The translations under genes were made by a program, and so were the position numbers. A stretch of 64,000 nt of DNA from Flagellimonas lutaonensis (GTDB taxonomy: Bacteria > Bacteroidota > Bacteroidia > Flavobacteriales > Flavobacteriaceae). Below the pieces are notes generated by a model, which was not told the origin of the DNA, did no database searches, and was given only the letters and a program-made list of their open reading frames with translations. Positions within the stretch are counted from its first letter, which is position 1; each line of letters begins with the position of its first letter. Shown one piece after another: positions 35,928 through 52,495 of the stretch. The stretch covers positions 186,001 through 250,000 of the forward strand of contig NZ_CP011071.1 of assembly GCF_000963865.1 (NCBI RefSeq). Direction: 5' to 3'.

Positions 35928-36665
35928 ATGAACGAAAAAACAATGGAACTGATGAAACAAATGAGGTTCTTTGGAATGCACAGGGCCTTCGCCACAACAA
36001 TGGAAACCGGAGGTGCCGATACCACCTACACCAATGACGAGCTCATCGCCTATCTCATCCAGAGCGAATGGGACGACCGCCGCAACCGCAGGATAGAGCG
36101 ATTGACCAAGTCCGCAAGGTTCAGGTACACGGCCGTTATGGAGGCCTTGGACTACCGTCCATCGCGCCAACTGGACAAAAATCTTGTACAGCGGCTCGGC
36201 TCCTGCGGCTTTATCCGAAAAAGGGAGAACATACTTGTCACGGGCAGTACGGGCGTGGGCAAAAGTTATCTGGCCTCCGCCATTGGCCACCAGGCCTGCT
36301 CGATGGGGTATAGAACAATGTACTTCAACACCGCCAAACTATTCACCCTGCTAAAGACCTCCAAGGCCGACGGTTCCTACCTGAAACAGATAAACCGATT
36401 GGAAAGACAGGACTTGCTCATATTGGATGATTTTGGGCTGAAGCCCCTGGACAACATAAACCGCCACTCCCTGATGGAGATCATCGAGGACAGGCACGGC
36501 AAAAGATCCACCATAATAGCATCACAGCTACCTGTCGAAGTATGGCACGACATTATAGGTGAAAAAACACTGGCCGATGCCATCCTGGACCGTTTGGTGC
36601 ACACGGCACACAGAATAGATATAAAAGGAGAATCAATGAGAAGAAAATTGAAAAATAAAAACTAA
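35928..36665 (+). CDS. istB: IS21 helper ATPase IstB
   Basis: A 245-residue AAA+ ATPase of the IstB/DnaC family. It has Walker A GSTGVGKS (near residue 106), Walker B DLLILDDFG, and the family N-terminus MKQMRFFGMHRAFATTMET. It assembles on DNA and directs IstA to targets. Both genes intact and correctly spaced indicate a functional insertion sequence. Confidence 0.95.
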   Translation: MNEKTMELMKQMRFFGMHRAFATTMETGGADTTYTNDELIAYLIQSEWDDRRNRRIERLTKSARFRYTAVMEALDYRPSRQLDKNLVQRLGSCGFIRKRENILVTGSTGVGKSYLASAIGHQACSMGYRTMYFNTAKLFTLLKTSKADGSYLKQINRLERQDLLILDDFGLKPLDNINRHSLMEIIEDRHGKRSTIIASQLPVEVWHDIIGEKTLADAILDRLVHTAHRIDIKGESMRRKLKNKN

Positions 36666-36757
36666 GTTTAACCCACGGATAGATCAAATCTGAGCAGTTC
36701 GTTTACACTGGTCACTTTCATCCGGCGAAGGTGGGTCACTTTACCCGGCTTATCCAC

Positions 36758-37753
36758 CTTAATGTACTGATTCATCTTTTGATTGGAATATATCGGAAGC
36801 AAAAGATTTGAACCATTGTTTGCATCGTACTTTTTTAGAATCTCCAAAGCTCTGTTCAGCAAAGGTATCTTGACAGGCTCCAAACTTTTCTTCCTATAGA
36901 AGGAGAGCCATTTTTTTCCATCAGCCCCAAAGACAATGTTGTCCTTGGTCAATCTCTTCATATCAATATAGGATAGACCTGTATAGCAACCAAAGACAAA
37001 AACGTCTCTGGTTCTTTGGTGTATGTCCCTTTTCAATACAGTTTCTTCCAATAGCCGAAGCTCTTTTATTGACAAAAAAGGCCTGTCAAACTTATGGTAT
37101 TTTAGATCATATTTATTAAAGGGATTCTTTTCAAGCCATTCTAATTTTACAGCCAAGTTCATTAATTTTTTCAGCCGTTCTATATGCTTCATTATTCCAT
37201 TGTTATTCAATATTTGGTTACTAAGATTATTCCTTTTGTTTCTCAGGTACTGCTCAAAGTCAACTAGGAATCCATAATTAAGATGTCTCAAGTATATATC
37301 CGATGATTTCATCTTGACAAGTAGGAACTTCATTAAGTACTTCTTGGTGGTTCGGTAATTTTTTAATGTCCCGGGTTTCAAAACCCCTGTCATTCTTTCC
37401 CCATGATAGGCAAACAAGTCCAAAAGGGTCGCGTCATGGTAGTCCAGCCCGAGATACCTCGCTTTTACTGTTTGGGCCGTCACAAACTTTCCCTCCTTTC
37501 TCAATTCTTTATAAGCGGTCGTGATATCTGCATATATATTATCCAATTCGTCATTTATGGCCCTGGCTCTATAAGTTCGGCCAATTGCCCTGCTCATTTT
37601 GTTGTCCCATTCATCTATTGGATGGAATTTGCCCAGACTGAATTCTGTTCGTTTTCCATCGACAGTGATTCGCACATAAATTGGGGCTTGATCATCTTTT
37701 CTTTTGGCCTTAACCTGTCGAAAAAGAACTTTGAATGTTCTTGAAGTCTTCAT
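36758..37753 (-). pseudogene. Tyrosine integrase remnant truncated by IS21
   Basis: From ATG 37753 the first ~330 residues are clearly homologous to the complete integrase at 50951-52195: arm-binding domain (RITVDGKRTEFSLGKFHPID), SAM-like core (LKPGTLKNYRTTKKYLMKFL) and start of the catalytic domain (VFGCYTGLSYIDMKRL). The frame then enters the IS21 end after NQYIK and stops. The catalytic H-x-x-R and Tyr segments are missing, so it is inactive. Its start lies 223 nt from an attachment-site copy, almost the same distance as in the intact element. Confidence 0.88.
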
Positions 37754-37975: not shown

Positions 37976-37988
37976 GTCGGGATGACTG
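37976..37988. repeat. Distal attachment site of the mobilizable element
   Basis: GTCGGGATGACTG matches exactly the 13 bases at 52421-52433, which form the 3' end of tRNA-Pro. The match and its position at the far end of the mob gene block identify it as the second att site. Confidence 0.8.
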
Positions 37989-38227
37989 AACTAAATTTAT
38001 ACAGTTAAGTATTCTATTTTCAAATAGTTAGGCGTTGAAATCTTTAATAAAATCCCTTTATGGACACCGATAACCAAGAAGTAACTTAAGAACGTAATCT
38101 TATTGTGTCTTTCTGACGCTAAACTAATGAGAAATTGTGTAATTTATTTCACAATTCAACATTAAAAACCATTATTATATTTAAATCGCAAGATTATATT
38201 AGAAAACCTTTGATTTAAAATATTCTG
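37989..38227. other. AT-rich non-coding end of the mobilizable element
   Basis: About 240 nt between the att copy and the lipoprotein gene, very AT-rich, with no ORF or clear hairpin. Confidence 0.4.
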
Positions 38228-38626
38228 TCATTCCCTCTCAGCCAAAAATCGCAAATCATTTAAAATTGTACGCGTGGGCAAGGATACACAACTATTAGGA
38301 GCACAATCAATACTAGTAGGATTCTCTCCCATAAATAAATTTACTGCAAAATAATCAATACTAGACTGGGTAGTTTCCAATTCAAAACGAAATGAGCCAT
38401 CATTTCCTGACTCTATTTCTTCTTCAATTATAACCTCATCTAACTGACCTACTCCAGAAACTCTTTTCCTTCCTTGAAAGTTAAGGGTTGCTCCAACAAC
38501 TGGGGATAAATCATCCTCATAAAGAAGTACGCCTTCATAAATTGTTAATTTGCTATCATTATCGTCCGAGTCGCATCCCAAAAAGGTAAAGATGGAAATA
38601 CTAAAAATTAATAAATGTTTCATCAT
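38228..38626 (-). CDS. Small lipoprotein coupled to the T9SS lipase
   Basis: A 132-residue lipoprotein (MMKHLLIFSISIFTFLGC, Cys18, then acidic DSDDNDS). The mature part (IYEGVLLYEDDLSPVVGATL) looks like a carboxypeptidase-regulatory, transthyretin-like beta sandwich, and two cysteines near the end (CAPNSC) may pair. Its ATG overlaps the TGA of the upstream lipase gene by four bases, so the two are translationally coupled. It could anchor, chaperone or neutralise the secreted lipase; none of these is shown. Confidence 0.75.
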   Translation of the reverse strand: MMKHLLIFSISIFTFLGCDSDDNDSKLTIYEGVLLYEDDLSPVVGATLNFQGRKRVSGVGQLDEVIIEEEIESGNDGSFRFELETTQSSIDYFAVNLFMGENPTSIDCAPNSCVSLPTRTILNDLRFLAERE

Positions 38627-41361
38627 GGTCTTTCTATTATAATTTTGTATTTCAAGATTTCAAAATCGGTTTTTATTTCCAACACATATATGCCCTCTTT
38701 TAATGCAGAAGTGTAATAAGTTTCCTCGTACTCACCCAAAGGTCTATAACTATTGGTTATGGTAACGGTCTCACCACCAAAATTAGTAATAGGAATTAAT
38801 GAAATATTTACATTACCTTCCGCTGGCATCGAATATTTCACGTTCACCTGTCCTTGAACAGGGTTTGGCCAAATAGTAATTCCTTTTTCAAATTCACTTT
38901 GCACTATTTCGTCCTCATCGACGGTTTCTTCATCTTTACCAATGTCATCAGTCTTTCTAATACCTCCACCAGGGTCTCCACCTTCACTACAACCATAAAT
39001 AGGATGATATTCATCATATACGGTAAAAGTTCGGCTCATGGCATTGGAAGAACCTGAGAATCCTGAACTTGATGAATACGACCTTCGCAGATTCACGGTA
39101 TAAGTTCCGACGGGTAATCCAGGGCCCATTCTTAATGTTTTTCCCTGAAGGCTAAAATTTCTTGGGCCCGTTACCGTCCAAGTATGAGTATACAAATTAG
39201 CGATTTCACTTCCGTCGTCAACAATAAACAATGTACGGCTTCCAACTTCACAGGTATACCAATAATCGGTATTAATTCGAGGTCTAGGTGGAGAAGATGA
39301 ACCAATTGTTTGATTGCAAAAGCTCGTTAAACCAAATCCAAATTCATCTTGGAAGAGGTCTGCCCAAGAATCATCTATGTCTGAATTATTTATATGCTGA
39401 GAATTGTCATTCTCTCCATATATTTTATCAAAAGGAGTCCAGTTATTTGCTTCAAGTTGTGCCACACTTCTGTTTAAATGAGACTGTGTAGTTCGTGGTG
39501 CTGTGGATGCCGTACTGCTGAACAATGGAACAAAGCTAAATAAAGAATTCCCAAAATCATTGACTGTATGCCCACCGAACCAACTTGCAATGTTAAAAAC
39601 ATCGAGTAAAAAATTCACATCTGGACCTATGTTATCTGTTTGATTGCTCTCTGTGCCCCCAGCCACCATATCATAATTAAACCCATTGAAATTATACGAG
39701 TCTTCCCTTACAGTTGTTGGAACACCTAAAGTTAGTATAATCAAAGAGGAAACCTTGGTATTCGTGTTCAAACCATTAGTGCGAACAACAATGAATCCAC
39801 TAAGAGCATTTACAAAATCAACATCCAGTAATTTGTTTCCTGGGCTATAAGTTAGTTCAGGTTCATTAACTGACCCATCTACAGCAGCATTGACAATACT
39901 CAGATTTTTTATACCACCTTGAGAAGGAAATCCAAGGTTCTGAAATTCATTCTGAAGGCTAGTGAAATCGGAATGAGGATTAGGGCCTAATCTCCTAAGA
40001 AGTAGTTGCTTAGCAGCCTTACTGTTTACACTGGTCATAGCGTCATCAACTTCTGATATTGAAATATTTAACAGTGAAAACAAATTAATATCATCAATAT
40101 CTTCAATCAGTTTTTGATACCCTACAGGTATGTTGGCACCAAGATGAGGAGCATCAAAGCTTATGAAGTGACTTACATTATGAACCCTACTTGAGTTTTC
40201 CATAGAAGTTAGAGCATATCGAGCAATTAATCCTCCCATGCTTTCACCAATAACTATAATATCATTGTTGCCTATTTTCTGGTCGTTGACCGTTTCAATC
40301 AATTGCTCAAGAACGTCCGCATTGGTTCTAATGTCTCCGCCACCGCTGTAGAAATTCAGGTAAATCATATCGTATCCATTATTTCGAAGTGTTCCCTCGA
40401 TGTTAGCCACTTGAAAACGGTCTTGGATATCATAGGCGTTTGAATCTCCTAGTGGGTCAAATCCCTCCACATAGATTACTGGCCTATCGAAAACCCTGTC
40501 ACATCCCCTAAATACCAACGCCTGTCCTCGGAAGAAGCTGCTGCCCCTGGAAGTAGTATTTGAATTCTGTTTTGAAGAATTAGGTAATGCTAAATCATAT
40601 GAAAGGTATGGTTCTTCTTTTTCCAACGTAACAATGTAGAGTTTACTATAATTGATAAATTCCCTTTCTTTGTTAAGTTCAAATTTTACAGCTATTGATT
40701 TTTCCCCATCAGAATCATATTCAACATTGATAATTTCTCCTGCGCTAACTTCTCGAAAACCTTGTCCATCTGAAAAGTCTATGGATATCGATTTAACGTT
40801 GGCATTACTTTCAACGTAGAACAAATCCCTCAAAACTTCAAATCTAATGGTACCCGAATAAACCTTATTTTTCAGAATTCCACCATTAAAAATTTTATAT
40901 TTCTTATATTTTTTATCTAATAGAAAACCGTTTTTGGTAGCTTCTATGTTTTCATCTATATCATAGTCTTCTAGGTATTCTCCTTCAACACAAATAATCC
41001 CAATTGGAACAGTTCCCTCTTGTTCTTTAGAGGATTCCATGATTTGAAGAACATCTGTCTCAGGGAAGTCTGAGTTCTTTTTCAAAAATGACTTAGACAA
41101 TCCTTGATAGATTACTTCCCAACTACTCGGCTCAACAAAAGAAAAGTAACTATCCAGTTTTTCTTCCTCAAACTTCAGAAACTCCGCAACACGGTTTTTA
41201 AAGAAAAAGCCTTTGTTCAAGAATTTCTCTGTTTTTATCGATTTCTTTTCTACACTATCCAATCGGTCATAGGCATCTTTAAGTTTTTTAAGACCATCTT
41301 CCTGGGAATAAGAAGAAGCGAATAAAATAAGAGTTAAAAATGTAAGTAAATAATTTTTCAT
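38623..41361 (-). CDS. T9SS-exported alpha/beta-hydrolase (lipase-like)
   Basis: A 912-residue secreted protein with signal peptide (MKNYLLTFLTLILFASSYS). A PGAP1-like hydrolase domain lies at about residues 290-480: VIYVEGFDPLGDSNAYD, nucleophile elbow GESMGG with Ser374, and FISFDAPHLGANIPVG. A beta-rich region follows. The final 80 residues are a T9SS type-A sorting domain (KGITIWPNPVQGQVNVKYSM ... LKYKIIIERP), so the protein is exported through the type IX system and attached to or released from the surface. It probably hydrolyses lipid or acyl esters outside the cell. It is IME cargo. Confidence 0.85.
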   Translation of the reverse strand: MKNYLLTFLTLILFASSYSQEDGLKKLKDAYDRLDSVEKKSIKTEKFLNKGFFFKNRVAEFLKFEEEKLDSYFSFVEPSSWEVIYQGLSKSFLKKNSDFPETDVLQIMESSKEQEGTVPIGIICVEGEYLEDYDIDENIEATKNGFLLDKKYKKYKIFNGGILKNKVYSGTIRFEVLRDLFYVESNANVKSISIDFSDGQGFREVSAGEIINVEYDSDGEKSIAVKFELNKEREFINYSKLYIVTLEKEEPYLSYDLALPNSSKQNSNTTSRGSSFFRGQALVFRGCDRVFDRPVIYVEGFDPLGDSNAYDIQDRFQVANIEGTLRNNGYDMIYLNFYSGGGDIRTNADVLEQLIETVNDQKIGNNDIIVIGESMGGLIARYALTSMENSSRVHNVSHFISFDAPHLGANIPVGYQKLIEDIDDINLFSLLNISISEVDDAMTSVNSKAAKQLLLRRLGPNPHSDFTSLQNEFQNLGFPSQGGIKNLSIVNAAVDGSVNEPELTYSPGNKLLDVDFVNALSGFIVVRTNGLNTNTKVSSLIILTLGVPTTVREDSYNFNGFNYDMVAGGTESNQTDNIGPDVNFLLDVFNIASWFGGHTVNDFGNSLFSFVPLFSSTASTAPRTTQSHLNRSVAQLEANNWTPFDKIYGENDNSQHINNSDIDDSWADLFQDEFGFGLTSFCNQTIGSSSPPRPRINTDYWYTCEVGSRTLFIVDDGSEIANLYTHTWTVTGPRNFSLQGKTLRMGPGLPVGTYTVNLRRSYSSSSGFSGSSNAMSRTFTVYDEYHPIYGCSEGGDPGGGIRKTDDIGKDEETVDEDEIVQSEFEKGITIWPNPVQGQVNVKYSMPAEGNVNISLIPITNFGGETVTITNSYRPLGEYEETYYTSALKEGIYVLEIKTDFEILKYKIIIERP

Positions 41362-41615
41362 AGTCAGTGTATTTATAGGTATTTATAATATATTTCTGAC
41401 AGAAATTTACAACACATAAAGATACCAGACGTAAATTTTTTGTAAAATTCGTTCAATTGAAAAACTATCAATCCTTTACATTTTAAGGATTACCCATATT
41501 TCAAATGAGTTTGCGATTTCGAAATAATTTGCAAATAGTTTTTAGCAACAATTTCTGATTTGAATATGATAGTTTATCTATCCTTGAGAGAAACCTGATT
41601 AAGTGAAAAACTATA

Positions 41616-42989
41616 TTATCCTTCTTTTTCAGACATAGAATGATTATCTACAAAATATTCAATATAGTTGGGCAACTGTGTACCTAAATAATAAGGTAAA
41701 TTCATCAATAAAAAAGGTGTTCCGGCTATAGTAGTTGATTTCTCCACTTTGTACCCCCCACCATAGATTCGAATGGCATATGGATGGTCAGTTCGGTCCA
41801 TGAACTGATGCAAGGATTTTAAGGTTCCTGTTGCTCCTGATTTTATCTCAATGGGAATAACCTTATCTTGGTAGGGATACACCAAATCTACTTCCGAGGA
41901 AGATTGTTTTTTTTCTCTAATCCAAAAATGGGGTTTTGTACTACTAATGGTATTCAATGATATAATTTCTTGCGTTATGAGATGGGGAATGATAGCTCCT
42001 TTAAAAGCATTACTCAAATCTTCCATCCCCAAAAGCTGTGCTTGAATTCCCAAAGTGTAGTTTACGAGACCGGTATCTAAAAACTGTAAACGAGGTGATT
42101 TATTAATATTTGGCTTAATAGGTGGTTCAATGTCTGTTGTAGGATAAATGAGTTGTATGATTTTTGCTGCATCCAGATTACGCATGGCTTCTCCTACCTC
42201 CCTTGACCTATAATTCGAATTTCCAAAATTCTGGAATTTGATTCTTTGGTCTATATAGAGATGGGCAGTTTCCATAATATGTCTGATTACCCGTCTTTCG
42301 GTAGCATTGGAGGCATATTTTTCAACATCTTCCTTATAGGTGGCCCAAATGCTTTCATAAACATTGGGAAGATTAGCCAAGTTGCCATCTCCAATGTTCC
42401 TTTTGACCACTTCGGGCATTCCTCCAATTATGGCATACCGATGAAAAAGTCCTAGCAATGTCTTATGTGCTACAGGATTTAAAGGTACGCTTCGCAAATA
42501 ATTTAAAGCCGTATTATGGTTTATTGCTTGTAGGTATTCAGAAAAATTTAAAGGGAATAAATATAGAAACTCGACTCTTCCCACTGGAAAGCTCTCTACC
42601 TCTTTTATTGCAAATTCCAGTAGAGATCCTGCTGAAATCACATGAAGCTCTGGAACTTCTTCAAAAAAATACCGAAGTAACTGGATGGCCTTGGGTAGTT
42701 CTTGAATTTCATCTATAAACAGTAACGTGTTCTGCTGCTGGTCAGGAGTAATATTATTTGATAATAATAATGACTCTACAATGGTATTAACATCGTCATA
42801 GGCTTCGAAAAACTCTTTGTCAGAAGTTTTTTCCAGATTCAATGGAATAAAAAAATCATAGCTTTTGGCAAATTCCGTTACTAGGGTCGTCTTGCCCACC
42901 TGTCTTGCTCCACGTAATATTAGCGGTTTCCTATTATTACTGGCCTTCCAAGCTTCCAGATTTTTTAGAACATACCTTTTAAAATTCAT
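41616..42989 (-). CDS. AAA ATPase with DUF4143 (PF13173/PF13635 type)
   Basis: A 457-residue protein. The N-terminal AAA module has Walker A GARQVGKTT at 27-35 and Walker B LLFIDEIQE with Asp93-Glu94. The C-terminal DUF4143 domain ends in a restriction-endonuclease-like segment (SSSEVDLVYPYQDKVIPIEI with the E/D...I-x-I-E-x-K pattern). Such proteins are widespread in Bacteroidota and often sit in variable loci; their role is unknown, with nuclease or toxin-like activity suggested by the fold. Three phased direct repeats lie directly upstream. Confidence 0.9.
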   Translation of the reverse strand: MNFKRYVLKNLEAWKASNNRKPLILRGARQVGKTTLVTEFAKSYDFFIPLNLEKTSDKEFFEAYDDVNTIVESLLLSNNITPDQQQNTLLFIDEIQELPKAIQLLRYFFEEVPELHVISAGSLLEFAIKEVESFPVGRVEFLYLFPLNFSEYLQAINHNTALNYLRSVPLNPVAHKTLLGLFHRYAIIGGMPEVVKRNIGDGNLANLPNVYESIWATYKEDVEKYASNATERRVIRHIMETAHLYIDQRIKFQNFGNSNYRSREVGEAMRNLDAAKIIQLIYPTTDIEPPIKPNINKSPRLQFLDTGLVNYTLGIQAQLLGMEDLSNAFKGAIIPHLITQEIISLNTISSTKPHFWIREKKQSSSEVDLVYPYQDKVIPIEIKSGATGTLKSLHQFMDRTDHPYAIRIYGGGYKVEKSTTIAGTPFLLMNLPYYLGTQLPNYIEYFVDNHSMSEKEG

Positions 42990-43002
42990 ATTACAATAAT
43001 AT

Positions 43003-43086
43003 TTGTAACAAAGTAAGGGTTATTTTTTTAATTTATTGTAATAAAGTAAGGGTAAAAGTTAGAAAATTTTGTAACAAAGTAAGGGT
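43003..43086. repeat. Three 18-nt direct repeats at exactly 33-bp spacing
   Basis: TTGTAACAAAGTAAGGGT occurs at 43003-43020, 43036-43053 (one change) and 43069-43086. The period is 33 bp, about three helical turns. The array starts 14 nt upstream of the DUF4143 ATPase start codon. On the minus strand each copy contains TTACTTTGTTACAA. It is probably a set of operators or iteron-like protein-binding sites for this gene. Confidence 0.8.
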
Positions 43087-43162
43087 AGAAAGGTGTCCAG
43101 CACCCACATTTGAACCCACGCCGCCCCAAATCTTACCATAACCTTCATGCGCGTGGTTCCTG

Positions 43163-43229
43163 TGGAATTTCTTCCGCGTTCGGGAAGATAAGCGGGAAGC
43201 CCGCCAGAGGCGGGTGAAAAGAAATTCCA
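43163..43229. repeat. Nested inverted repeat downstream of the mob genes
   Basis: An outer perfect 11-bp inverted repeat (TGGAATTTCTT at 43163-43173 with AAGAAATTCCA at 43219-43229) encloses a hairpin CCCGCC-AGA-GGCGGG at 43200-43214. It lies just past the DUF6730-like stop. It could be a terminator, a structured RNA or part of an origin of transfer. Confidence 0.55.
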
Positions 43230-43240
43230 TAGGGCGCATC

Positions 43241-43708
43241 CTACTTTTGATTTGTGATGCTGTCATGTTTTTGGACCCACTCTTGGTAATCCTTGAAAAT
43301 GACAGGATGGTCCTCAAAATATTGTGTCGCTTTAAATAATCCCTCATTCTTTCCCTCCAGATAGGCAGTTTCCTTTTGCTTTTCATATTGAATGTAATGA
43401 TAACCGAAGTAACCGAATACCGTTGCATTCAGAATCATTACTGTGTAAATTAAAGCTACCTCCCATTTCGGTATTAACCTCGATTTGTCAATATTCTTTA
43501 GTGCTTTATCCAAAGCCTGATGCTGCTTTTCCGAAATGCTTTTCAAATTGGATTGGTGTACGTTCAACAGGCGTTCCATTTCCGAGGTGTCCGGCTCGAA
43601 ACCAAATTCGTCGATATTTTTGAGCAGTACTTTGAGTTCAGTAACCCAACTTCCAAAAGACCTGATTTCCTCGGTCAGCAGTTCCGCTATTTCATCCAGT
43701 TTTGCCAT
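43241..43708 (-). CDS. DUF6730-like mobilization-associated membrane protein
   Basis: A 155-residue protein. The N-terminus is helical, likely coiled coil (LDEIAELLTEEIRSFGSWVT, EMERLLNVHQSNLKSISEKQ). One membrane span lies near residues 83-105 (VALIYTVMILNATVFGYFGY), followed by a charged cytoplasmic tail. Proteins of this layout accompany MobB-type relaxases in Bacteroidota elements. It begins 4 nt after the relaxase stop, so it belongs to the mob operon and may dock the relaxosome at the membrane. Confidence 0.7.
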   Translation of the reverse strand: MAKLDEIAELLTEEIRSFGSWVTELKVLLKNIDEFGFEPDTSEMERLLNVHQSNLKSISEKQHQALDKALKNIDKSRLIPKWEVALIYTVMILNATVFGYFGYHYIQYEKQKETAYLEGKNEGLFKATQYFEDHPVIFKDYQEWVQKHDSITNQK

Positions 43709-43712
43709 AACA

Positions 43713-44594
43713 TTACAATCCTATTTCGATTCCTATCCCTTTATCGATTGTTCTTTTGATGGTTTTTGAAATTGCTTTTGTAGCAATTTTAGCAACGAGA
43801 TTGGGAGATAGATTTACTGTGTTGCCCATCAGTTTCATTGCATTTTCGGTTTTTGCTTTCTCCACTACATTTCTGTTGAATCCAATCTGTTCGGCTATCT
43901 TGTTCATGGACATTGAAGGGTGCACCTCACTGCCTTTTAAGTTCTGTCCTGCAAACTCAAACCGAAAGCCCTGCAATTGGTTCTGCTTATTAATGGATGG
44001 GATGACCTTTACTGGGTAGGCTTCCATCGCTTTAATGTATTGGTCAAAGTCCTTTGGCCTCATTTCGCTGATGACCTTTTCGTGAATTCTTTTGAGAATC
44101 ATCCGCATATCCTTCGCCATGTCCAGTTTTTGTTGTTGGACTTCCCGTACTGTAGTCAGGCCCATTTCCTTTGCCACCCGTTCCGCAGCTTGCTGGCTCC
44201 GCTTTCCAATAAAGTTGTCTTTATAAGCCTGACCTTGAAAATTGATTCGGTTTACGTACAAATGGATATGGACGTGCTTTCTGTTTCTGTGGACAAATGC
44301 AATGGCCTGGTTCTCCCGTAATTTCATCTGTTTCAGAAAGCGTTCCGTGATTTCTTGGAGTTCTTTGTTTTTCATTTCCCTGCCATCTTTGATGGTTGGA
44401 CTCAATACAAAACTCAGGGTGTTCTTTTTACATTGATGGTTCTGCTGTTGGATGGTCCTGAACTCTTGTGTAATCTCCTTTGGGGTATCTCCGGCGAGAT
44501 ATTGGCTATGGATAATCTCGGGTTTCTTTTCTTCCCGAAGTCCGTAGGCCATGGATGCCGATGTGTGCGATATGGATTTTCCCATTCCGATCAT
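43713..44594 (-). CDS. mobB: Relaxase / mobilization nuclease
   Basis: A 293-residue relaxase. The N-terminus MGKSISHTSASMAYGL is typical of Bacteroidota MobB proteins. The metal-binding triad H107-x-H109-x-H111 followed by Asn115 (HVHIHLYVNRIN) is the catalytic site that coordinates the divalent cation during nicking. The candidate nucleophilic Tyr is Tyr17. It nicks oriT and pilots the strand. It overlaps mobC by four bases (ATGA). The gene is intact, so the element could be mobilized by a helper. Confidence 0.92.
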   Translation of the reverse strand: MIGMGKSISHTSASMAYGLREEKKPEIIHSQYLAGDTPKEITQEFRTIQQQNHQCKKNTLSFVLSPTIKDGREMKNKELQEITERFLKQMKLRENQAIAFVHRNRKHVHIHLYVNRINFQGQAYKDNFIGKRSQQAAERVAKEMGLTTVREVQQQKLDMAKDMRMILKRIHEKVISEMRPKDFDQYIKAMEAYPVKVIPSINKQNQLQGFRFEFAGQNLKGSEVHPSMSMNKIAEQIGFNRNVVEKAKTENAMKLMGNTVNLSPNLVAKIATKAISKTIKRTIDKGIGIEIGL

Positions 44595-44887
44595 GCCTTA
44601 AATCTTAAAAGGTGTTCCCTGATTTCTTTTGCCAGTTGGGTGACTTCATCTGCCAATTTTGGATTTCGCTTTCGAAACATGTTCCCGATGCGCTTGAAAT
44701 TGTTCTGATACTGAACCAATAATTTATAAGCCTCAATTTGGTCTTCAGATAAACGCTCAATAATCCTATCATCAAATGCGGCACGGCGACAATACTCACT
44801 GATGGAGAGACCTGACTTTTTGGCCTTCACTTTCAGCAGTTTCTTCTCATAGACTGAGCACCTGAATTGGACGAATTCCCTTTTCAT
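44591..44887 (-). CDS. mobC: MobC relaxosome accessory protein
   Basis: A 98-residue protein from ATG 44887 (MKREFVQFRCSVYEKKLLKV); a longer in-frame start adds a Cys-rich, unlikely leader. The ribbon-helix-helix segment (VQFRCSVYEKKLLKVKAKKS, LSISEYCRRAAFD) and the later helix (LLVQYQNNFKRIGNMFRKRN) are typical of MobC, which binds oriT and helps the relaxase. It overlaps the relaxase start by four bases. Confidence 0.9.
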   Translation of the reverse strand: MKREFVQFRCSVYEKKLLKVKAKKSGLSISEYCRRAAFDDRIIERLSEDQIEAYKLLVQYQNNFKRIGNMFRKRNPKLADEVTQLAKEIREHLLRFKA

Positions 44888-45082
44888 AGGTTTTTTCCTC
44901 TTTTGCGACCTTCGGGAGCAAAAGCAAGATTTGTCATGACAATGACACATCTTGAATTCTCACTCAGACGCATATACCAAGCCGCAACCATATCACCTCT
45001 CATCTCCCTATCCATAAACCCAAAAACATCTGAAAAACATTCTTTACCAAATACAAAGTCATAAGGATAAAGTAATTGGCAT

Positions 45083-45373
45083 TCATTTTTTATCCTTTGA
45101 AATTCTTCGTTCGAATTCAGCTTCTAAATATTCATCGGAGAGGTTGGGCTTACCCATTAACCAAGCGTCTATAATATCCTTATCGAAAAATTTCTGGCGA
45201 ATGTACTTGTTACCACCCATGGGTATCAATCGTAATTGTGTCAGTTTGTAAATCTTACTTTTCGATAGTCCCGTATAACGGGCAAGGTCATTGACATTCA
45301 TAATCCGCTTTTGGTGGGATAGCAACTGCTTAATGTCTTTCAAAAGCTCCACCACATTTTCATCTGCTTCCAT
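45083..45373 (-). CDS. Excisionase-like helix-turn-helix protein
   Basis: A 96-residue protein of the HTH_17/MerR-like excisionase group: MNVNDLARYTGLSKSKIYKL then RLIPMGGNKYIRQKFFDKDI, DAWLMGK. Proteins of this type act as recombination directionality factors or regulate mob and excision genes in Bacteroidota elements. It precedes mobC in the same direction. Confidence 0.88.
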   Translation of the reverse strand: MEADENVVELLKDIKQLLSHQKRIMNVNDLARYTGLSKSKIYKLTQLRLIPMGGNKYIRQKFFDKDIIDAWLMGKPNLSDEYLEAEFERRISKDKK

Positions 45374-45494
45374 AATCTCATTTTCTAATAATTACCTTGT
45401 ACAAAGGGCAATTGTGTTACAAATCTTCGAGCCAAAGAAAGCAGATGATATGTGATGGAAAGGGAAAAAAGGGAAGATGTCCCCCAAAGAAAAT

Positions 45495-46166
45495 TCAATA
45501 GTCCCCCAAAAAATCGAAGAAAGAGTCGATTAGGCCTTCGAATTCGTCGCCCGGAGGAAACTCACTATACTTTTTGGAAAGGGTCTTTGCGTAGATAAGG
45601 TTGCCCTTGTGATAGACCTTTTCCGAACGTTCAAAGGTTTTCAAATGCAGTCCATTTTTAAACCGTTTGAACTTTTCGAGGATGTATTTCAATTGAGGCT
45701 GTGTGCAGATAAAATGAAGCTCGGAATCATGTTCTTCAAAATCAAGAACAAAAAAGTAGTGGAAGTCGGCGAAACTGGTCAGGTTTTCATCCAATAGTTC
45801 ATAACGGACAAGGGAATTGTAAATCCTTCTTAGGACTCTTTCGTTAAAGTCCATATTGATGCCGACAAGTTTTAGTTTGGGGGTGCTATGCTTTCGATTC
45901 AACTGTTCTTTATAAGATTCCCTAACGAGTATCCCCATTATGATTAAAACAAACAGTGCGATTGGAAGTAATGCGACCCAAAGAAGCTCATAATCATCAT
46001 ACAGCTCCAAGGCCCAGAAGACAAAAAAGGCACCAAAAACCAAAAACCATACGTACAGGCCATTGTTGCCTCGTTTTAGATAACTGTCCGTATCATTCTC
46101 GATTCTATCCTTCCGCAACTTGATGTTGACCAACCAACTGGCTATGGTGTCGATTAACTTCATCAA
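45495..46166 (-). CDS. Two-span membrane protein of unknown function
   Basis: A 223-residue protein. Two adjacent membrane spans at about residues 37-54 and 60-80 are followed by a soluble domain (VGINMDFNERVLRRIYNSLV, FHYFFVLDFEEHDSELHFIC, PGDEFEGLIDSFFDFLGDY). No family is recognised. The soluble part is rich in aromatic and acidic residues. It sits between the mob genes and the SIR2 operon on the element, separated from the latter by a structured non-coding region. Confidence 0.7.
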   Translation of the reverse strand: MMKLIDTIASWLVNIKLRKDRIENDTDSYLKRGNNGLYVWFLVFGAFFVFWALELYDDYELLWVALLPIALFVLIIMGILVRESYKEQLNRKHSTPKLKLVGINMDFNERVLRRIYNSLVRYELLDENLTSFADFHYFFVLDFEEHDSELHFICTQPQLKYILEKFKRFKNGLHLKTFERSEKVYHKGNLIYAKTLSKKYSEFPPGDEFEGLIDSFFDFLGDY

Positions 46167-46614
46167 TTCAAAGGGTATTTATTTAAAGATAACCAAAAGG
46201 AGGAGGGTTGTAGCCAAAATCTCGATGTAACCTATTATACGCTAGGTGGAAACGCAAAATTTTTGTGGCTGGGGAGAAGAAAGGTCAAGCGGTTTTTCAC
46301 CGCTTGTGCTTTCGCGCCGCTCCGAGGGTGTCGGAAAACCAGAAAGGTTTTCTGACTTCCGCAGGGGCATGGGAAAAAATTGAAATTAGCAAAGTTTAGA
46401 AAATCCAAGGCTCTTAAAAGAAGTCTTACAAAGTTCCAAAATAAATTACTAATATATAATTGTAAAAGGGTTTGTACTTCGGAGGTTCACCAAGAAGTTT
46501 TCTATCTTTTTATTGATTTTCACTAAGGCAATATGAAAATTATTTCCTGTATTCCGGTAATAAAAATTAGTATAGTTAAGATAAAAATGGAATCTAGAAA
46601 ATTATAACGGGAAT
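46167..46614. other. Structured non-coding region of the element
   Basis: About 450 nt without a gene. Two good hairpins stand close together: CAAGCGGT-TTTTC-ACCGCTTG at 46286-46306, and an 11-bp stem GTCGGAAAACC with GGTTTTCTGAC at 46330-46356 (one G-U pair). The GC-rich block 46264-46372 contrasts with AT-rich flanks. It could be the origin of transfer or a small RNA; the remainder to 46614 is AT-rich with no feature seen. Confidence 0.55.
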
Positions 46615-46851
46615 CTATTCTTCGACTTTTCTATAAGAAAATTCCTTTGTTTCTGGGTCAAATGAAGATTCTCCTATTCTAATGCTATTGGACGGATTGA
46701 GCACAGAGCCGTTTGTTGGGTCAAGAGCATTCATAGTATCTCTGTTAGCCACTTGTCCAAAAATCTGTTTTTCATAGGCTGATTCCGGTTTGTCTGGCAA
46801 CGCATCAAACAGCAACCTATCTACCTTCCTATTTAGTTCGAATAAATCCAT
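46615..46851 (-). CDS. Small fourth gene of the SIR2 operon
   Basis: A 78-residue protein from ATG 46851 (MDLFELNRKVDRLLFDALPD); an upstream in-frame TTG adds eight residues. No family is recognised. It has a short amphipathic N-terminal helix and a polar remainder (NRDTMNALDPTNGSVLNPSN, FDPETKEFSYRKVEE). It lies 35 nt after the SIR2 stop in the same direction and is the last gene of the operon, so it might be an inhibitor or accessory; that is speculation. Confidence 0.6.
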   Translation of the reverse strand: MDLFELNRKVDRLLFDALPDKPESAYEKQIFGQVANRDTMNALDPTNGSVLNPSNSIRIGESSFDPETKEFSYRKVEE

Positions 46852-46886
46852 AATTTCCCCCGAAAAGGAGTGCAAATTTACAATTA

Positions 46887-47789
46887 TTAATTCATATTAT
46901 CCAAAGCTATTTTCATGGCCTTTGTACTTATATCCATCAAGAATTTTGGGACTTCATCTTTATCTAGAATAAGAGGGGCTATTCTCAAATCCCTCAACTC
47001 TTCCTTTATCGCGACATCTACATCCCTGATGAATATCCAAACACCTAAATCCCTATCAACTTTATTTTTTATCTTTCTTAACAATGGGGCTATCAATCTA
47101 TCTCCAGAAGTGGCCTCTGACATTCCAATAAACAAAAAATTATTCTTTGATAAATAATGTTTGACCAAAACTGACCATTGACTATCGTCCTCCCCTAACC
47201 TCTGGTCGGCTTGAGATTTACTCAGAATTATTTCCTTGCTAGGTCTATCATCCATAATTGGATGAGGTACATATCCGTGCGGGTGAAATATTTCAACATC
47301 ATGGCCTGCAGAAAAGTAAGGCAGTTCAGAAACGCTGTTTACAATTAGTCCGAAGGAACTCAAATACCATTCCAGTAGAGAATCATAGTTTAGTGTAAAA
47401 ACTGTTTTAACCCTGCCTCTTCTTCCTCCTATTATCAGCCCTGCTATAGAATTAAGAGCCTTATGTTGAAAAATATCATATTTCTGACTTTCCAGATTAA
47501 GTCCATTATATAAGTACTTAGATATCAACTCGATAAGTTTCTTTTCGTCTCCTTTAAGCTCGCGGACGATTTTATCTGCTGCAATTTGAAATTCATCTGC
47601 ACTTGGACGTTCTTTTTCCAATAAAGGCAAACCGATTGCTTCGTCTTTATTTAAGTTGTTCAAAAGTGATTTCCAATCATCCACTTCGAATGATTTAGAA
47701 ATTCCGGCTCCCACAAAAAGACTGAGGGAATCTTGATATAGGCTTTTTGCCAAAAAATTTACCGCATTATCCCTGAACTCAATTTCCAT
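46887..47789 (-). CDS. SIR2-family protein (SIR2_2), probable NAD-consuming defence effector
   Basis: A 300-residue protein with the SIR2-like nucleotide fold: FVGAGIS at 25-31 (NAD-binding GAG), TLNYDSLLEW with Asn134 and Asp136, HPHGYV at 169-174 giving the catalytic-type histidine, and FIGMSEATSGDRLIAPLLRK late. In many bacterial defence systems this domain degrades NAD to stop phage growth. It lacks the long sensor C-terminus of Dsr proteins, so recognition is likely supplied by its neighbours. It begins 3 nt after the 277-residue gene's stop. Confidence 0.88.
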   Translation of the reverse strand: MEIEFRDNAVNFLAKSLYQDSLSLFVGAGISKSFEVDDWKSLLNNLNKDEAIGLPLLEKERPSADEFQIAADKIVRELKGDEKKLIELISKYLYNGLNLESQKYDIFQHKALNSIAGLIIGGRRGRVKTVFTLNYDSLLEWYLSSFGLIVNSVSELPYFSAGHDVEIFHPHGYVPHPIMDDRPSKEIILSKSQADQRLGEDDSQWSVLVKHYLSKNNFLFIGMSEATSGDRLIAPLLRKIKNKVDRDLGVWIFIRDVDVAIKEELRDLRIAPLILDKDEVPKFLMDISTKAMKIALDNMN

Positions 47790-47792
47790 TTA

Positions 47793-48626
47793 TTAGATTT
47801 CAGCGTTTTCTCTATCCAGTGGGGAAATTGAGGTATTATCGAAATAATCTGAGTCATTCAAAAATGAAATAAAGTAAATTAGAGAAATTAGATTCAGGCA
47901 TCCCTTTTGTAAATACAACTTGTAATTGCCATATCTGTCCGCGTTTAGACTCAAATTAATTCTAGACAGACCATCATCCCTTCCGACTACACATTTGAAC
48001 CTGGAAGTGCTTGGAATCCATATATTCTTTTCATCATTATTTTTATTCGATAGTAAATCGAACACCAATTCGCCGATGTCAGTTGACAGAGGCTTGTTTC
48101 CCTTGATAATCACATTAGATATATCACCCCTACTCCGTTTAGAAATTCCAACTCCTGTTGTTTTTACAGTAATATTTTTTGAGACTAACTCATTCCCAAT
48201 AACAGTATTTATCAAATTAAAAATTCTAATTATCAGGTACTTAGGTTGAATTTTAAGCTGGTTCAATACATCCTTTATAAATTGGCTTAAAAGTTCAGAA
48301 AAAGGTGTTAGTAAACAAACAATTCCATCCGCCTTAAAGTGCAATATTAAACTATCGTATGCAAAGTTTTTGACCTTGTTTCCTAGATACGCTTTGGCCT
48401 TACTTTTATCCACATTAAAATGTTCTTGTAACCCCCTATGGTAAGGCCGATCGGTATTATAGACTAGATGAATTACCTTTGCAGACATGATTTCCTCCGA
48501 TTTAATCTGTGTCCAATCCTTAAAACTTTTTGCAAGTTCTTCAATAGCAATGAAACCTTCTGTCCTAAGAATTATCATGTTATAATATCTCTGATCCCCA
48601 GTAATATCAATCTTTGGTTTATACAT
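47793..48626 (-). CDS. Unrecognised second protein of the SIR2 operon
   Basis: A 277-residue soluble protein without a family I recognise. Features are an N-terminal alpha/beta segment (YNMIILRTEGFIAIEELAKS), a middle AKVIHLVYNTDRPYHRGLQE, a helix-rich stretch (FSELLSQFIKDVLNQLKIQP), and a C-terminal region with KRSRGDISNVIIKGNKPLST and FKCVVGRDDGLSRINLSLNA. No signal peptide or membrane span is present. It lies between the HExxH protein (2 nt upstream) and SIR2 (3 nt downstream), so it must be co-expressed and may link sensing to effector. Confidence 0.75.
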   Translation of the reverse strand: MYKPKIDITGDQRYYNMIILRTEGFIAIEELAKSFKDWTQIKSEEIMSAKVIHLVYNTDRPYHRGLQEHFNVDKSKAKAYLGNKVKNFAYDSLILHFKADGIVCLLTPFSELLSQFIKDVLNQLKIQPKYLIIRIFNLINTVIGNELVSKNITVKTTGVGISKRSRGDISNVIIKGNKPLSTDIGELVFDLLSNKNNDEKNIWIPSTSRFKCVVGRDDGLSRINLSLNADRYGNYKLYLQKGCLNLISLIYFISFLNDSDYFDNTSISPLDRENAEI

Positions 48627-48628
48627 GG

Positions 48629-50746
48629 CTATTGAATTATTGACAACATTATTTTACAGGTTTCTCGAGAGTAATCAATTTCATTCTTCTCGAGTGTTTT
48701 TCGTATCCTATCTAAGAGGAAGGCAACAGGGCTATTTATTCTTTCATCTTCAAAACTATCTGGAAGGTCATATTTAAAATCCATTTCTTCAGATTCTGCT
48801 TCGTCTAGCACGGTTACAAAATCATCATTGTAGATTTTAGAGGATAAAACTTCTGAAATGAAAACATCATCGATCATGTCGACCAGCATTAGATAAGAAT
48901 AAAAACCGCCATAGTATGCTTTCGTTAAGTACTCTAAATCATTGAGCAAAAGAATTATTCTAGCAATAAGGGGCTTTTTAATTTTTGAATGCAAGTCTAC
49001 CAAGGAACTTTTCAGCATGCTTACACTTTCTTTGAACCTTTCATACGGTCTTATCGCAACGACCTTGGTGCTAATTACAATCAAACATCTAAGAATATAC
49101 TGTCTAAGGTCTGCATCAATATGGGGCAAGGAACTCCATGAGTGCCAAATTGACTTGATATAGAAATCAATCTGACCTCTATAAATGTAATTTAAATCAA
49201 ATAGGTGAACAAATATTTCATTGATATTCCGGAAGTTATGAGTTAGCAATTTAAACATCGCATTGTAATCCTTTGGAATGTCATAGGGTTGCAGTTCATT
49301 ACCCGCTACTAAAACATGTTTCTCAACACTAAGCGAACCATATTTGTCAGCAAGACAGCAATGCGTAAGAACTATGTAACGAACAGAATCAAGTAGACTT
49401 TTTTCCTCACTAAATCCATTCTTACTTATATCCCTAAAGGTCATATAAAAATTCATTTTATCTTCTTCGCTCTGCTCCGACAAATCACCAGCTAAAATCA
49501 AATTAAGTAATTGTCGAACTTGACTGTGCATCAATTCATGAGTTAAGGTCATAATACTCCACTCAGGATCTGCCCCATTGGTAATTGATTGTATTGCAGC
49601 AGAAATAGCATATTCACTCTCTCTAAAACCAAGTCTTGCACTAAAATAAGGTAGTTTAAAAAGATTATTTTCCTTTTTCGATCTTACAAATTCATCGATA
49701 TTAGAATATTTCCATCTTTTAGTGTCGTATTTGTGGGGGCTTTCAATATCCACCAAAAACGACCCTGTTTTCTTAAAATCGACTGTTATCTTTTCCTCAA
49801 AATTATATTCGTGAAAAATTGATTCAATAAAGTCCGTAATCCTGTATAATGCCAGAATACCAGAGCCAATACCACATAATGAATGCCTTCTAATTAGTGA
49901 TCTCCGCGAGAGCACTGGTATTGTGCCGGAAAACGTTTGCGTTGAAACATATGATATAATTGAAATCAATTGTATCGCCCTATCTACATATTGATTTTTA
50001 TGATAATTATCTTCAATGCTCTTGTTAATGCTTTTCTTTAATCTAATAAGCTCTTCTTCGGATAAATCCTCAACAATTTGGATATTTTTGAGGTCTTCGA
50101 ATTGTATATCAATAGAATCCTGATACTTTTTAATCTTTTTTATCAGAGAGTTAATCTCTTTATTGATTTTTTTAATTTCGAATAACCCATCGATAGGCAC
50201 ACTAGCCACCTTAGTTGCAAATAAGCTTAAGGACAAATGAAGTTCTTCAAATATGTTCTTAATTGAAATCGGCAACTGGTCATAGTCTTCAAATACAATT
50301 TTTATATCACCAATGCTTTTTGGTGCCTTTATATTTTCACATCTAACCTTTCCTGGACTTAATTCCCACTCTTCAAAACTCACACACTCATCATCAATTT
50401 TTGAGAGTAACTCATCTAAGATAGCGGTAGTTCTTCCGAATAGGATTATAGAACTTATACCATATCCAAAAAAAACCTTCACATCTAAGGATTTGTAAAA
50501 TACTTTTAATTGGGACAAAACCCTCATTGGATTTATGAAAAAACAAAATCTTATATATCGATATTCTAACAAATCCGGTATTTCCTTTTCACTTTCTATA
50601 AGTGGAAAAATTTGAGATATTCGATTATAATTATTCTTCGCTAACTGCTCCTGTTTTAGCTCTTCGAATACTTCCACATTTGCATTCAAAGATGTATCTC
50701 CCCAGTAGGAGGAAATTTCATCTTTCCTAGAAATTACAAGCCACAT
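48629..50746 (-). CDS. Large protein with HExxH metalloprotease-like motif, first gene of the SIR2 operon
   Basis: A 705-residue soluble protein of no recognised family. A zinc-binding HExxH motif, His403-Glu404-Leu-Met-His407, lies in IMTLTHELMHSQVRQLL, preceded by a hydrophobic strand as in gluzincin-type peptidases. The third ligand is not obvious. Residues 190-250 are charged and probably coiled coil. The rest is mostly helical, with aromatic-rich stretches (YSYLMLVDMIDDVFISEVLS). It may be a sensor whose protease activity processes a phage protein or the downstream partners; that is inference. It is followed after 2 nt by the 277-residue gene. Confidence 0.75.
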   Translation of the reverse strand: MWLVISRKDEISSYWGDTSLNANVEVFEELKQEQLAKNNYNRISQIFPLIESEKEIPDLLEYRYIRFCFFINPMRVLSQLKVFYKSLDVKVFFGYGISSIILFGRTTAILDELLSKIDDECVSFEEWELSPGKVRCENIKAPKSIGDIKIVFEDYDQLPISIKNIFEELHLSLSLFATKVASVPIDGLFEIKKINKEINSLIKKIKKYQDSIDIQFEDLKNIQIVEDLSEEELIRLKKSINKSIEDNYHKNQYVDRAIQLISIISYVSTQTFSGTIPVLSRRSLIRRHSLCGIGSGILALYRITDFIESIFHEYNFEEKITVDFKKTGSFLVDIESPHKYDTKRWKYSNIDEFVRSKKENNLFKLPYFSARLGFRESEYAISAAIQSITNGADPEWSIMTLTHELMHSQVRQLLNLILAGDLSEQSEEDKMNFYMTFRDISKNGFSEEKSLLDSVRYIVLTHCCLADKYGSLSVEKHVLVAGNELQPYDIPKDYNAMFKLLTHNFRNINEIFVHLFDLNYIYRGQIDFYIKSIWHSWSSLPHIDADLRQYILRCLIVISTKVVAIRPYERFKESVSMLKSSLVDLHSKIKKPLIARIILLLNDLEYLTKAYYGGFYSYLMLVDMIDDVFISEVLSSKIYNDDFVTVLDEAESEEMDFKYDLPDSFEDERINSPVAFLLDRIRKTLEKNEIDYSRETCKIMLSIIQ

Positions 50747-50782
50747 TTAAAATGAAAGATTTTATCTAAAGTGAATTAATAT

Positions 50783-50812
50783 TCTTTACAATGTAAGAAT
50801 GTACTGTAAAGA
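50783..50812. promoter_or_regulatory. Inverted repeat upstream of the SIR2 operon
   Basis: TCTTTACA - 14 nt - TGTAAAGA, a perfect 8-bp inverted repeat 37-66 nt upstream of the HExxH gene start. The minus strand also reads TATCTTTA at its outer edge, close to a TAnnTTTG box. It is probably an operator overlapping the operon promoter. Confidence 0.4.
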
Positions 50813-50950
50813 TATTCATAATATCTATCATGACCTCCTCACGTATTTAGGGAAGATTATATGTTGTTTCAAAAAAATCTTTTGAAGCCATTTTGGGACT
50901 ATTTTATTAAAATGATAAGTATTTTAGAACGAGTAGCTTACGAAATCGCT

Positions 50951-52195
50951 CTAGAGTTGCGTCGCTTTTTGGTTTTTTGACTCCATTACATCCATTAAAT
51001 TTTGCATATCCTGTCCAACTTTCTTTTCAACCACCCTGGCATAAATCTGAGTAGTGGATAATTTGGTATGACCCAATAGTTTTGAAACGGTTTCTATTGG
51101 AACACCATTGGATAGGGTTACGGAAGTGGCAAAGGTATGTCTAGCGGTATGGAAAGTCATTCTTTTTCGGATTCCACAAGCATCTGCAATTTCCTTTAAG
51201 GTTCTATTTATCATTTGGTTGCTATACCTAGGTAGTAGCCTATCCCCTTTGACTATTCTCGATTCAGTTTTATATTTTTCAATGATTTCTAAAGCTTTCG
51301 GCAGTAAAGGTATTCTTAAGGGTTCATCGGTTTTGGCCCTTTTGGTGTAAAGCCAATTATTTCCATCGATACCTTTTACCAAATGCTCCACCTTCAAACC
51401 TTGGACGTCTACAAACGAAAGCCCTGTGTAACAGGCGAAAATAAAAAGGTCTTTAATTTGCTCGGTACTTGGCCTTTTAAAGGTTGTTTGTTCCACTAAC
51501 TGCAGTTCCCATTCCGTCAAAAATTGACGATTAGTTTTTTCAAATCGAAGCTTGAAATTAACAAAGGGGTCTTTTTCGAGCCATTCCAGGCGAACACCTA
51601 GCCTTGACATCTTTTTTAAGCGTTCCATGTGTTTCATGGCCCCATTATTAGCACATCCCATTCGAGTGGAAGGCTTATACTTGCGTACATATTGTTCAAA
51701 GTCGGTTATGAAACCGTAATTCAATTTATTTAATGGAATGTCTTCAATCTTAAGCTCATCTTTTAGATATTTCTTTATACATCTTTCCGTGCTATAATAA
51801 TTCTTCATGGTTCCTGGTCGTAGGGAAGTCTTCATCGTGGCATTATGATAGGAAATCAAATCCAATAAGGTCTTACCTTGTTCATCTGTACCGAGATAAC
51901 GTGCCTTGATTTTTGCCGAAGTAATGTCTTCTCCCTCTTGTAAAAGTTGGCGATGTGCTTCGTGAAGGCCAGTAAAAACCTGGTCCAAATACTTATTTAC
52001 GGAGGTTACGTATTTGGAAGACCCCCTACCCCTTTTGCTTCTGTTGTCCCATAAAGAGGCCTTCAATTCCCGATTCAAACTAAACTCCGCTCTTTTTCCA
52101 TCTACAGTTATGCGCGCATAAAGCATTAAGTTTTCAGTTTCCCTCTCGAGTTTTCTTGTAATGAAAATAACGGATAATCTACTGTTTTCTAACAT
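50951..52195 (-). CDS. int: Tyrosine integrase of the mobilizable element
   Basis: A 414-residue integrase from ATG 52195; an upstream in-frame TTG is less likely. It has an arm-binding domain (ARITVDGKRAEFSLNRELKA), a SAM-like core-binding domain (LRPGTMKNYYSTERCIKKYL) and a catalytic domain with FHTARHTFATS (H-x-x-R), LLGHTKLSTTQIYARV (nucleophile Tyr). The usual first Arg position reads YTGLSFVD, with Ser instead of Arg, as in CTnDOT-type Bacteroidota integrases. Its start lies 226 nt from tRNA-Pro, matching use of the tRNA 3' end as attachment site. Confidence 0.94.
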   Translation of the reverse strand: MLENSRLSVIFITRKLERETENLMLYARITVDGKRAEFSLNRELKASLWDNRSKRGRGSSKYVTSVNKYLDQVFTGLHEAHRQLLQEGEDITSAKIKARYLGTDEQGKTLLDLISYHNATMKTSLRPGTMKNYYSTERCIKKYLKDELKIEDIPLNKLNYGFITDFEQYVRKYKPSTRMGCANNGAMKHMERLKKMSRLGVRLEWLEKDPFVNFKLRFEKTNRQFLTEWELQLVEQTTFKRPSTEQIKDLFIFACYTGLSFVDVQGLKVEHLVKGIDGNNWLYTKRAKTDEPLRIPLLPKALEIIEKYKTESRIVKGDRLLPRYSNQMINRTLKEIADACGIRKRMTFHTARHTFATSVTLSNGVPIETVSKLLGHTKLSTTQIYARVVEKKVGQDMQNLMDVMESKNQKATQL

Positions 52196-52366
52196 ATTAT
52201 GTAGCTTTAAATGAATAAACAACTGGTAAAAAACACATTGTCAATTACCCTTAAAAGCTACTTCAATGTACAAAAAATGTGGTGGTGTTCCATTCCCGAA
52301 TCCCTCACCAGCGAGGCATTTTCATATGGTTTCAGATGGTTTCTTTTGAAACCTCTAAAAACATAA

Positions 52367-52396
52367 AACGTTGCAAATCAGTCGATTTGCAACGTT
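52367..52396 (-). terminator. Terminator of tRNA-Pro inside the element end
   Basis: A perfect 13-bp stem (AACGTTGCAAATC with GATTTGCAACGTT) and a 4-nt loop, with T-rich sequence following on the minus strand. It lies 25 nt beyond the tRNA 3' end and so was supplied by the integrated element. Confidence 0.75.
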
Positions 52397-52420
52397 ATGC
52401 AACTAAAAGAAAATAGTTGA

Positions 52421-52433
52421 GTCGGGATGACTG
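52421..52433. repeat. Proximal attachment site in the tRNA-Pro 3' end
   Basis: GTCGGGATGACTG, identical to 37976-37988. Bases 52422-52433 are the acceptor and T-stem 3' portion of tRNA-Pro, so integration regenerates the tRNA. Confidence 0.8.
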
Positions 52434-52495
52434 GATTCGAACCAGCGACCACGCGCACCCCATGCGCGTACGCTACCAGACTGCGCCACATCCCG
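52422..52495 (-). tRNA. tRNA-Pro (GGG)
   Basis: A 74-nt cloverleaf on the minus strand. Acceptor CGGGATG pairs with CATCCCG, and the discriminator is A; CCA is not encoded. The D arm is GCGC-AGTCTGGTA-GCGT, the anticodon stem CGCGC/GCGCG with loop ATGGGGT (anticodon GGG at 52459-52461), and the T arm GCTGG-TTCGAAT-CCAGT. Loop positions 32 and 38 are A and T, which can pair, a feature known in some GGG/GGC-anticodon tRNAs. It decodes CCC and CCU proline codons and serves as the integration target. Confidence 0.93.

Follow-up and report, generated by a model that had tools for sequence, protein, structure and literature searches.

An undescribed, mobile SIR2 operon with a new HExxH protein family and a predicted RdgC/CENP-like partner

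The gluzincin metallopeptidases of families M1, M2, M4, M13 and M48 carry an HExxH motif within a helix together with an invariant glutamate further downstream, and in M2, M13 and M48 the second motif reads ExxxD. Within the window analysed here, a 64,000-nucleotide stretch of the Flagellimonas lutaonensis chromosome (NZ_CP011071.1, positions 186,001 to 250,000), one gene encodes a 705-residue protein with the same two elements, the downstream glutamate being Glu510 in an ExxxH motif that is comparable to ExxxD. It departs from the gluzincins in having 103 residues between the motifs, in the histidine that ends the second motif and in the lack of a Pfam match in any of 15 family members.

Two further groups of described systems bear on this locus. 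Pairs of a trypsin- or caspase-type protease with a nuclease gate the effectors of Hachiman, AVAST, Lamassu and canu systems, in a report whose text names neither SIR2 nor metalloproteases (PMC12799240). Our locus resembles these in that a putative protease gene is retained next to an effector gene in settings of mobility or defence, whereas here a putative metallopeptidase takes the place of the trypsin or caspase and a SIR2 protein that of the nuclease. The second group comprises the SIR2 NADase systems, Thoeris ThsA, DSR2, Avs5, SPARSA and Lamassu LmuA, with which the operon shares a ThsA/LmuA-like SIR2 domain with conserved asparagine and histidine residues; here, however, the SIR2 protein stands alone and the partner set differs, none of the other operon genes encoding a TIR, Argonaute, STAND or SMC protein. 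What switches on SIR2 effectors elsewhere is a binding event or cyclic ADP-ribose and not cleavage, and the known SIR2 defence enzymes are activated through assembly. Three assignments were considered and set aside. Thoeris combines ThsA, a SIR2 and SLOG protein, with the TIR protein ThsB, whereas our SIR2 protein has SIR2_2 only and the operon lacks a TIR gene. Lamassu places the SMC protein LmuB beside LmuA, and no SMC gene occurs among the conserved operon genes. DSR1 and DSR2 are very long SIR2 proteins with a large C-terminal sensor region, while the SIR2 protein here is about 300 residues.

A third likeness lies in the predicted fold of the protein encoded between the HExxH and SIR2 genes, which resembles RdgC, CENP-L, CENP-N and Iml3 (Foldseek E 2e-4 to RdgC), although it has no sequence-level match to them, sits in a SIR2 operon and reaches a TM-score of only about 0.43. 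Searches of the open-licence literature returned no paper on this gene combination and none linking RdgC to SIR2 defence. What the locus holds is a mobile SIR2 operon, undescribed so far and spread across phyla, in which a new HExxH family is joined by an RdgC/CENP-like partner. This is a larger find than that of the first-pass annotation, which had singled out the 705-residue protein from the sequence of the window.

The HExxH protein and its family

The HExxH protein is encoded by an ATG-started open reading frame at 48629..50746 on the minus strand, as first described, and founds a family, so far unclassified, of putative zinc peptidases. The earlier remark that it belongs to no recognised family held, with no significant Pfam-A, PADLOC or NCBIfam family in our scans of the protein and no significant Pfam or PADLOC family in any of the 15 homologues of alignment A3, each scanned singly. 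Profile and fold searches of the PDB gave no significant match either, nor any sign of membership of a known peptidase family. The protein contains a single HExxH, His403-Glu404-Leu-Met-His407 (codons 49526..49540, minus strand). The motif is weak evidence by itself because it appears in 2.0% of shuffled versions of the protein, and becomes credible because homologues conserve it.

A whole-genome search recovered one homologue (G116) with 33% identity across 583 residues (E 9e-83), and a profile search recovered a second (G1051) from a Flavobacteriaceae MAG. Both were found without use of the motif and both retain it, as ITHEMTH and ITHEMLH, so that the conservation of Glu404 among homologues, proposed at the outset as a check on the assignment, is borne out. 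In the MAG a run of eight T (L019:1320-1345) carries a frameshift that interrupts the gene; the assembly may be at fault, or the copy may be broken or phase-variable. From the window protein and these two homologues we built the DNA pattern W...T.THE..H..VR and scanned a collection of genomes from 84,980 species. Each of the 13 stretches recovered encodes a relative (tblastn E <= 1e-29), one of these stretches being the G1051 contig again, and so does one viral contig. The sources of the relatives are Bacteroidota, a Melioribacteraceae MAG, Rhodococcoides and a second actinomycete, a planctomycete and a Lysobacterales MAG. HExxH is invariant in 15 of 15 sequences of alignment A3; for the pattern-found loci this conservation is by construction, while G116, which is among the 15, and G1051 were not selected on the motif.

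Outside the search pattern, Glu510, His514, Asp517, Tyr520, Tyr522, Tyr529, Trp534, Trp537, Tyr550 and Arg553 are invariant in 14 of 14 sequences. The residues E510-xxx-H514-xx-D517 (codons 49196..49219, minus strand) are thereby conserved across Bacteroidota, Actinomycetota, Planctomycetota, Pseudomonadota and the viral contig, which supplies the downstream glutamate or histidine that the first-pass annotation had looked for in a gluzincin-type site. Conserved aromatic and arginine residues beyond the motif also include Trp127 and Trp345. The predicted site is gluzincin-like and would be formed by His403, Glu404, His407 and Glu510, with Glu404 as the predicted general base, Glu510 as the predicted third metal ligand and His514 and Asp517 probably assisting as predicted second-shell residues. 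The 705-residue protein represents a genuine family that had not been classified before, and its predicted zinc-enzyme site is kept across several bacterial phyla.

The family is rare, occurring roughly once per several hundred genomes among the approximately 1,950 searched by protein or profile. Single-sequence scans of genome contigs, viral contigs, plasmids and phages returned no homologue, the family was absent from the phage and plasmid records searched, and a two-sequence profile run on a phylum-wide sample added no member. A second DNA pattern, IWxSW...DLRQY, gave only chance matches in viral contigs, and a candidate additional member, G1658, proved to be a genome identical to L030.

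An AlphaFold model of the HExxH protein, built with 14 sequences, reached a pLDDT of 76 and a pTM of 0.67. HExxH falls within a predicted helix spanning residues 394-417, and ExxxHxxD within a second at 494-521 with a pLDDT of about 90; residues 369-395, just ahead of HExxH, were predicted with low confidence, and the large N-terminal region, residues 1-240, has no recognised fold. The hydrophobic strand that had been proposed to precede THELMH, WSIMTL, is a helix in the model and not a strand, because the predicted helix holding the motif begins at residue 394, while the charged coiled-coil suggested for residues 190-250 is consistent with predicted helices at 185-209 and 230-272. Foldseek searches of the model against the PDB and viral models gave nothing significant, and among PDB matches to the full model there was no zincin (best E 0.24). 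Weak aminopeptidase N matches in Foldseek were set aside as not significant, as were the PDB profile matches, which were to helical design proteins and to HtpX at E 0.63. The model fits a gluzincin-like active site within a fold that is either new or modelled too poorly to be recognised, and the identity of the protein as a zinc peptidase, by family or by fold, is putative.

The operon and its mobile element

Downstream of the HExxH gene of the window, starting within a few bases, come genes for proteins of 277, 300 (SIR2) and 78 residues. The order HExxH, middle, SIR2 holds across phyla in 12 of the 12 loci with enough flanking sequence (the window, L004, L019, L045, L023, L030, L026, L046, L051, L050, L049 and L048); L047 and L052, which are cut inside the middle gene, were excluded from the count. 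Pairwise identities of the three proteins co-vary, with Spearman coefficients of 0.73-0.76. Three of the four operon proteins have no Pfam or PADLOC family, yet the genes stay together in lineages as far apart as Bacteroidota and Actinomycetota. The pairing with a SIR2 effector that had been read from the window is real and constant across loci, but the SIR2 gene (46887..47789) is not adjacent to the HExxH gene; one gene intervenes and a small gene follows. At least two further parts that the first reading missed, a protein of RdgC/CENP-L/N fold and, in most loci, a small protein with a promoter motif of its own, alter the likely wiring.

The middle protein (277 residues in the window, about 270 across loci; 47793..48626, minus strand) gave an AlphaFold model with a pLDDT of 78.5 and a pTM of 0.81. 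The best Foldseek match was E. coli RdgC (E 2.1e-4, probability 1.00), followed by Iml3, CENP-L, CENP-N and TBP. The match to RdgC is distant, since TM-scores are only near 0.43, and the matches are mutually consistent because the matched proteins are known to be alike, the mutual similarity of RdgC, Iml3, CENP-L, CENP-N and TBP having been published (PMC4080450). No credible sequence family was found for the middle protein, and the Pfam RdgC model was unmatched in 10 members. It is as a structure prediction that we describe an RdgC fold here. RdgC, a recombination protein, is toroidal and binds DNA (title of PDB 2owy), and the middle protein may likewise bind or sense DNA, which makes it our proposed sensor.

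The SIR2 protein, 300 residues and ThsA-like (46887..47789, minus strand), matches Pfam SIR2_2 (E 1.2e-11) and the PADLOC ThsA model (E 9e-12), with matches to ThsA and LmuA models overall. In alignment A7, Asn134, Asp136, His169 and His171 are invariant, so that the catalytic asparagine and histidine of the SIR2 fold are conserved as Asn134 and His169/His171. SIR2_2 was the only domain recognised. The protein would on these grounds act as an NADase, and we propose it as the effector. The window protein had just two PDB sequence matches, both weak, among them 9v0g, a 278-residue 'NAD-dependent protein deacetylase' present as 6 entries and 52 chains, for which we found no paper.

The small protein (78 residues; 46615..46851, minus strand, start ATG at 46851) is our candidate inhibitor or protease substrate. 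In 8 of 8 main-clade Bacteroidota loci a 75-82-residue protein of this single family follows SIR2 (HMM E <= 4e-29), and in two pairs of relatives pN is 0.20 against a pS of 0.69-0.88, which indicates purifying selection. All eight spacers between the SIR2 and small genes contain TAnnTTTG, against a background expectation of 0.027 per 60 nt; in the window the match is TAAATTTG (46873..46880, minus strand). TAnnTTTG is the consensus of the Bacteroidota -7 promoter element (PMC7366714), and it is absent from the 200 nt upstream of all eight HExxH genes. The arrangement differs in Rhodococcoides and the other actinomycete, in the planctomycete, on the viral contig and in L051, which is a divergent flavobacterial MAG: there a small ORF lies directly ahead of the HExxH gene. 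One well-supported branch (98/96) divides the two arrangements in a tree in which some branches are long. Profile-profile comparison of these 5' ORFs with the 3' Bacteroidota small proteins gave no support for homology (hhalign probability 1%), and three of the six 5' ORFs rank among the top 9 non-member matches of 3257 segments. Homology of the 5' ORFs to the 3' small protein stays a possibility, hinted at by rank evidence alone.

The window operon sits on a mobilizable element of ~14.4 kb (37976..52437) integrated at tRNA-Pro (52421-52495) and flanked by a short direct repeat of the 3' end of this tRNA, with the copy CAGTCATCCCGAC within 37976-37992. The element encodes a tyrosine recombinase adjoining the tRNA (50951..52222, minus strand; Pfam Phage_integrase and Arm-DNA-bind_5) and a MobA/VirD2-type relaxase with a NikA-like mobilization protein (43713..44950, minus strand; Pfam Relaxase E 9.6e-29, NikA-like E 6.4e-21). 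No RNA family besides the tRNA was found within it. At other loci the neighbours include an AAA_21 (OLD/AbiEii-like) ATPase, a cytosine methylase, a ParB-like protein and, on the viral contig, a large serine recombinase.

The element and its borders hold several other genes. Between the operon and the mobilization genes lies a 223-residue membrane protein with a sub-threshold DUF6617 match (45495-46166), and an AAA_14/DUF4143 ATPase, an archaeal-type predicted ATPase (41616-42989), is carried aboard the same element. Near the far end is a 912-residue secreted-looking protein with an alpha/beta-hydrolase-like motif (GESMGG) and a C-terminal sorting-type domain (38623-41361). Just past that end is a second tyrosine recombinase (36668-37753) whose catalytic domain has no Pfam match, adjoined by an istA/istB-like transposon pair (34359-35903 and 35928-36665); together these may be the disrupted remains of an earlier integration into this tRNA. 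Beside the integration site, 52992-61484 encodes a 2830-residue repetitive surface protein with a gliding-motility-type C-terminus.

Proposed function and competing readings

The genomic context of the HExxH family suggests a role in defence. The HExxH protein is probably one component of an undescribed, mobile, anti-virus suicide system, because it is always found with the same partners. More specifically, we favour, tentatively and at somewhat less than an even chance, a reading in which it is a zinc peptidase of a new family, or a switch derived from one, that acts as the transducer of a mobile abortive-infection operon. Sequence establishes the conserved site, the gene set, the separate promoter motif and the mobile setting, DNA binding and NADase activity are read from fold or family, and the order of events, the peptidase substrate and the role against phage are conjecture. 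The protein of RdgC/CENP-L/N fold would bind DNA and recognise phage DNA or a recombination state, and this recognition would release the HExxH enzyme. The enzyme would then cleave either the small restraining protein, which would be expressed separately and probably more strongly, or SIR2 itself, and the freed SIR2 would destroy NAD+ and halt the infected cell. Proteolytic gating of immune effectors has a precedent in trypsin- and caspase-gated nucleases (PMC12799240), and the protease reading of the first-pass annotation gains partial support. Counting against the proposal are the lack of a zincin among PDB matches to the model, the low confidence just ahead of HExxH, the activation of SIR2 effectors elsewhere by means other than cleavage, the rarity of the family and its absence from the phage and plasmid records searched. 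The fullest form of this proposal, a mobile immune system in which a zinc peptidase of a new class is set free by the RdgC/CENP-L/N-fold DNA sensor and turns on the SIR2 NADase by removing a small dedicated inhibitor, is doubtful when taken as a whole.

It is possible, if somewhat unlikely, that the operon is instead built on a SIR2 toxin and a small-protein antitoxin. In that case the HExxH protein would be a regulated protease degrading the antitoxin, and the module would serve mainly to stabilise its element or exclude competitors rather than to sense phage. The small protein has the size of an antitoxin; in one clade it follows the operon under a promoter motif of its own, and at the loci from Actinomycetota, Planctomycetota, the viral contig and L051 a small ORF opens the set, just ahead of the HExxH gene. 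The mobile setting would also suit such a module. A plain toxin-antitoxin pair, however, needs no third, large conserved partner with a DNA-binding-type fold, and the SIR2 protein is of a type that serves as an immune effector.

The absence of a peptidase fold match for the HExxH model would be explained if the protein were a scaffold, or a zinc-bound hydrolase other than a peptidase, complexed with the RdgC-like protein and SIR2, so that assembly and not cleavage activates the system. Known SIR2 defence enzymes behave in this way, and conserved Trp127, Trp345, Trp534, Trp537 and Arg553 outside the motif fit an interaction platform. Glu404, by contrast, the predicted general base, would be dispensable for mere zinc binding, yet it is kept in the unselected homologues, and we regard this explanation as unlikely.

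Strict conservation of the catalytic-looking residues, along with an N-terminal region (residues 1-240) that could bind targets, would also suit an HExxH enzyme that is itself an effector and cuts a protein of host or phage when the RdgC-like sensor is triggered, with SIR2 as a second, parallel effector. We consider this improbable, as two costly effectors in a fixed order at every locus would be unusual and nothing points to an external substrate. That HExxH is a chance motif in an unrelated protein with no metal site is scarcely credible, since, for all that 2% of shuffles produce one, it is kept at about 33% identity in homologues found independently of it and is accompanied by an invariant downstream ExxxH.

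The operon is compact, with four genes in about 4.1 kb, and lends itself to direct tests. If the peptidase does gate SIR2, the operon would be a metallopeptidase-triggered counterpart to the caspase- and trypsin-gated immune effectors, and it would give a role in immunity to a protein that shares the fold of RdgC and of the kinetochore proteins CENP-L and CENP-N.
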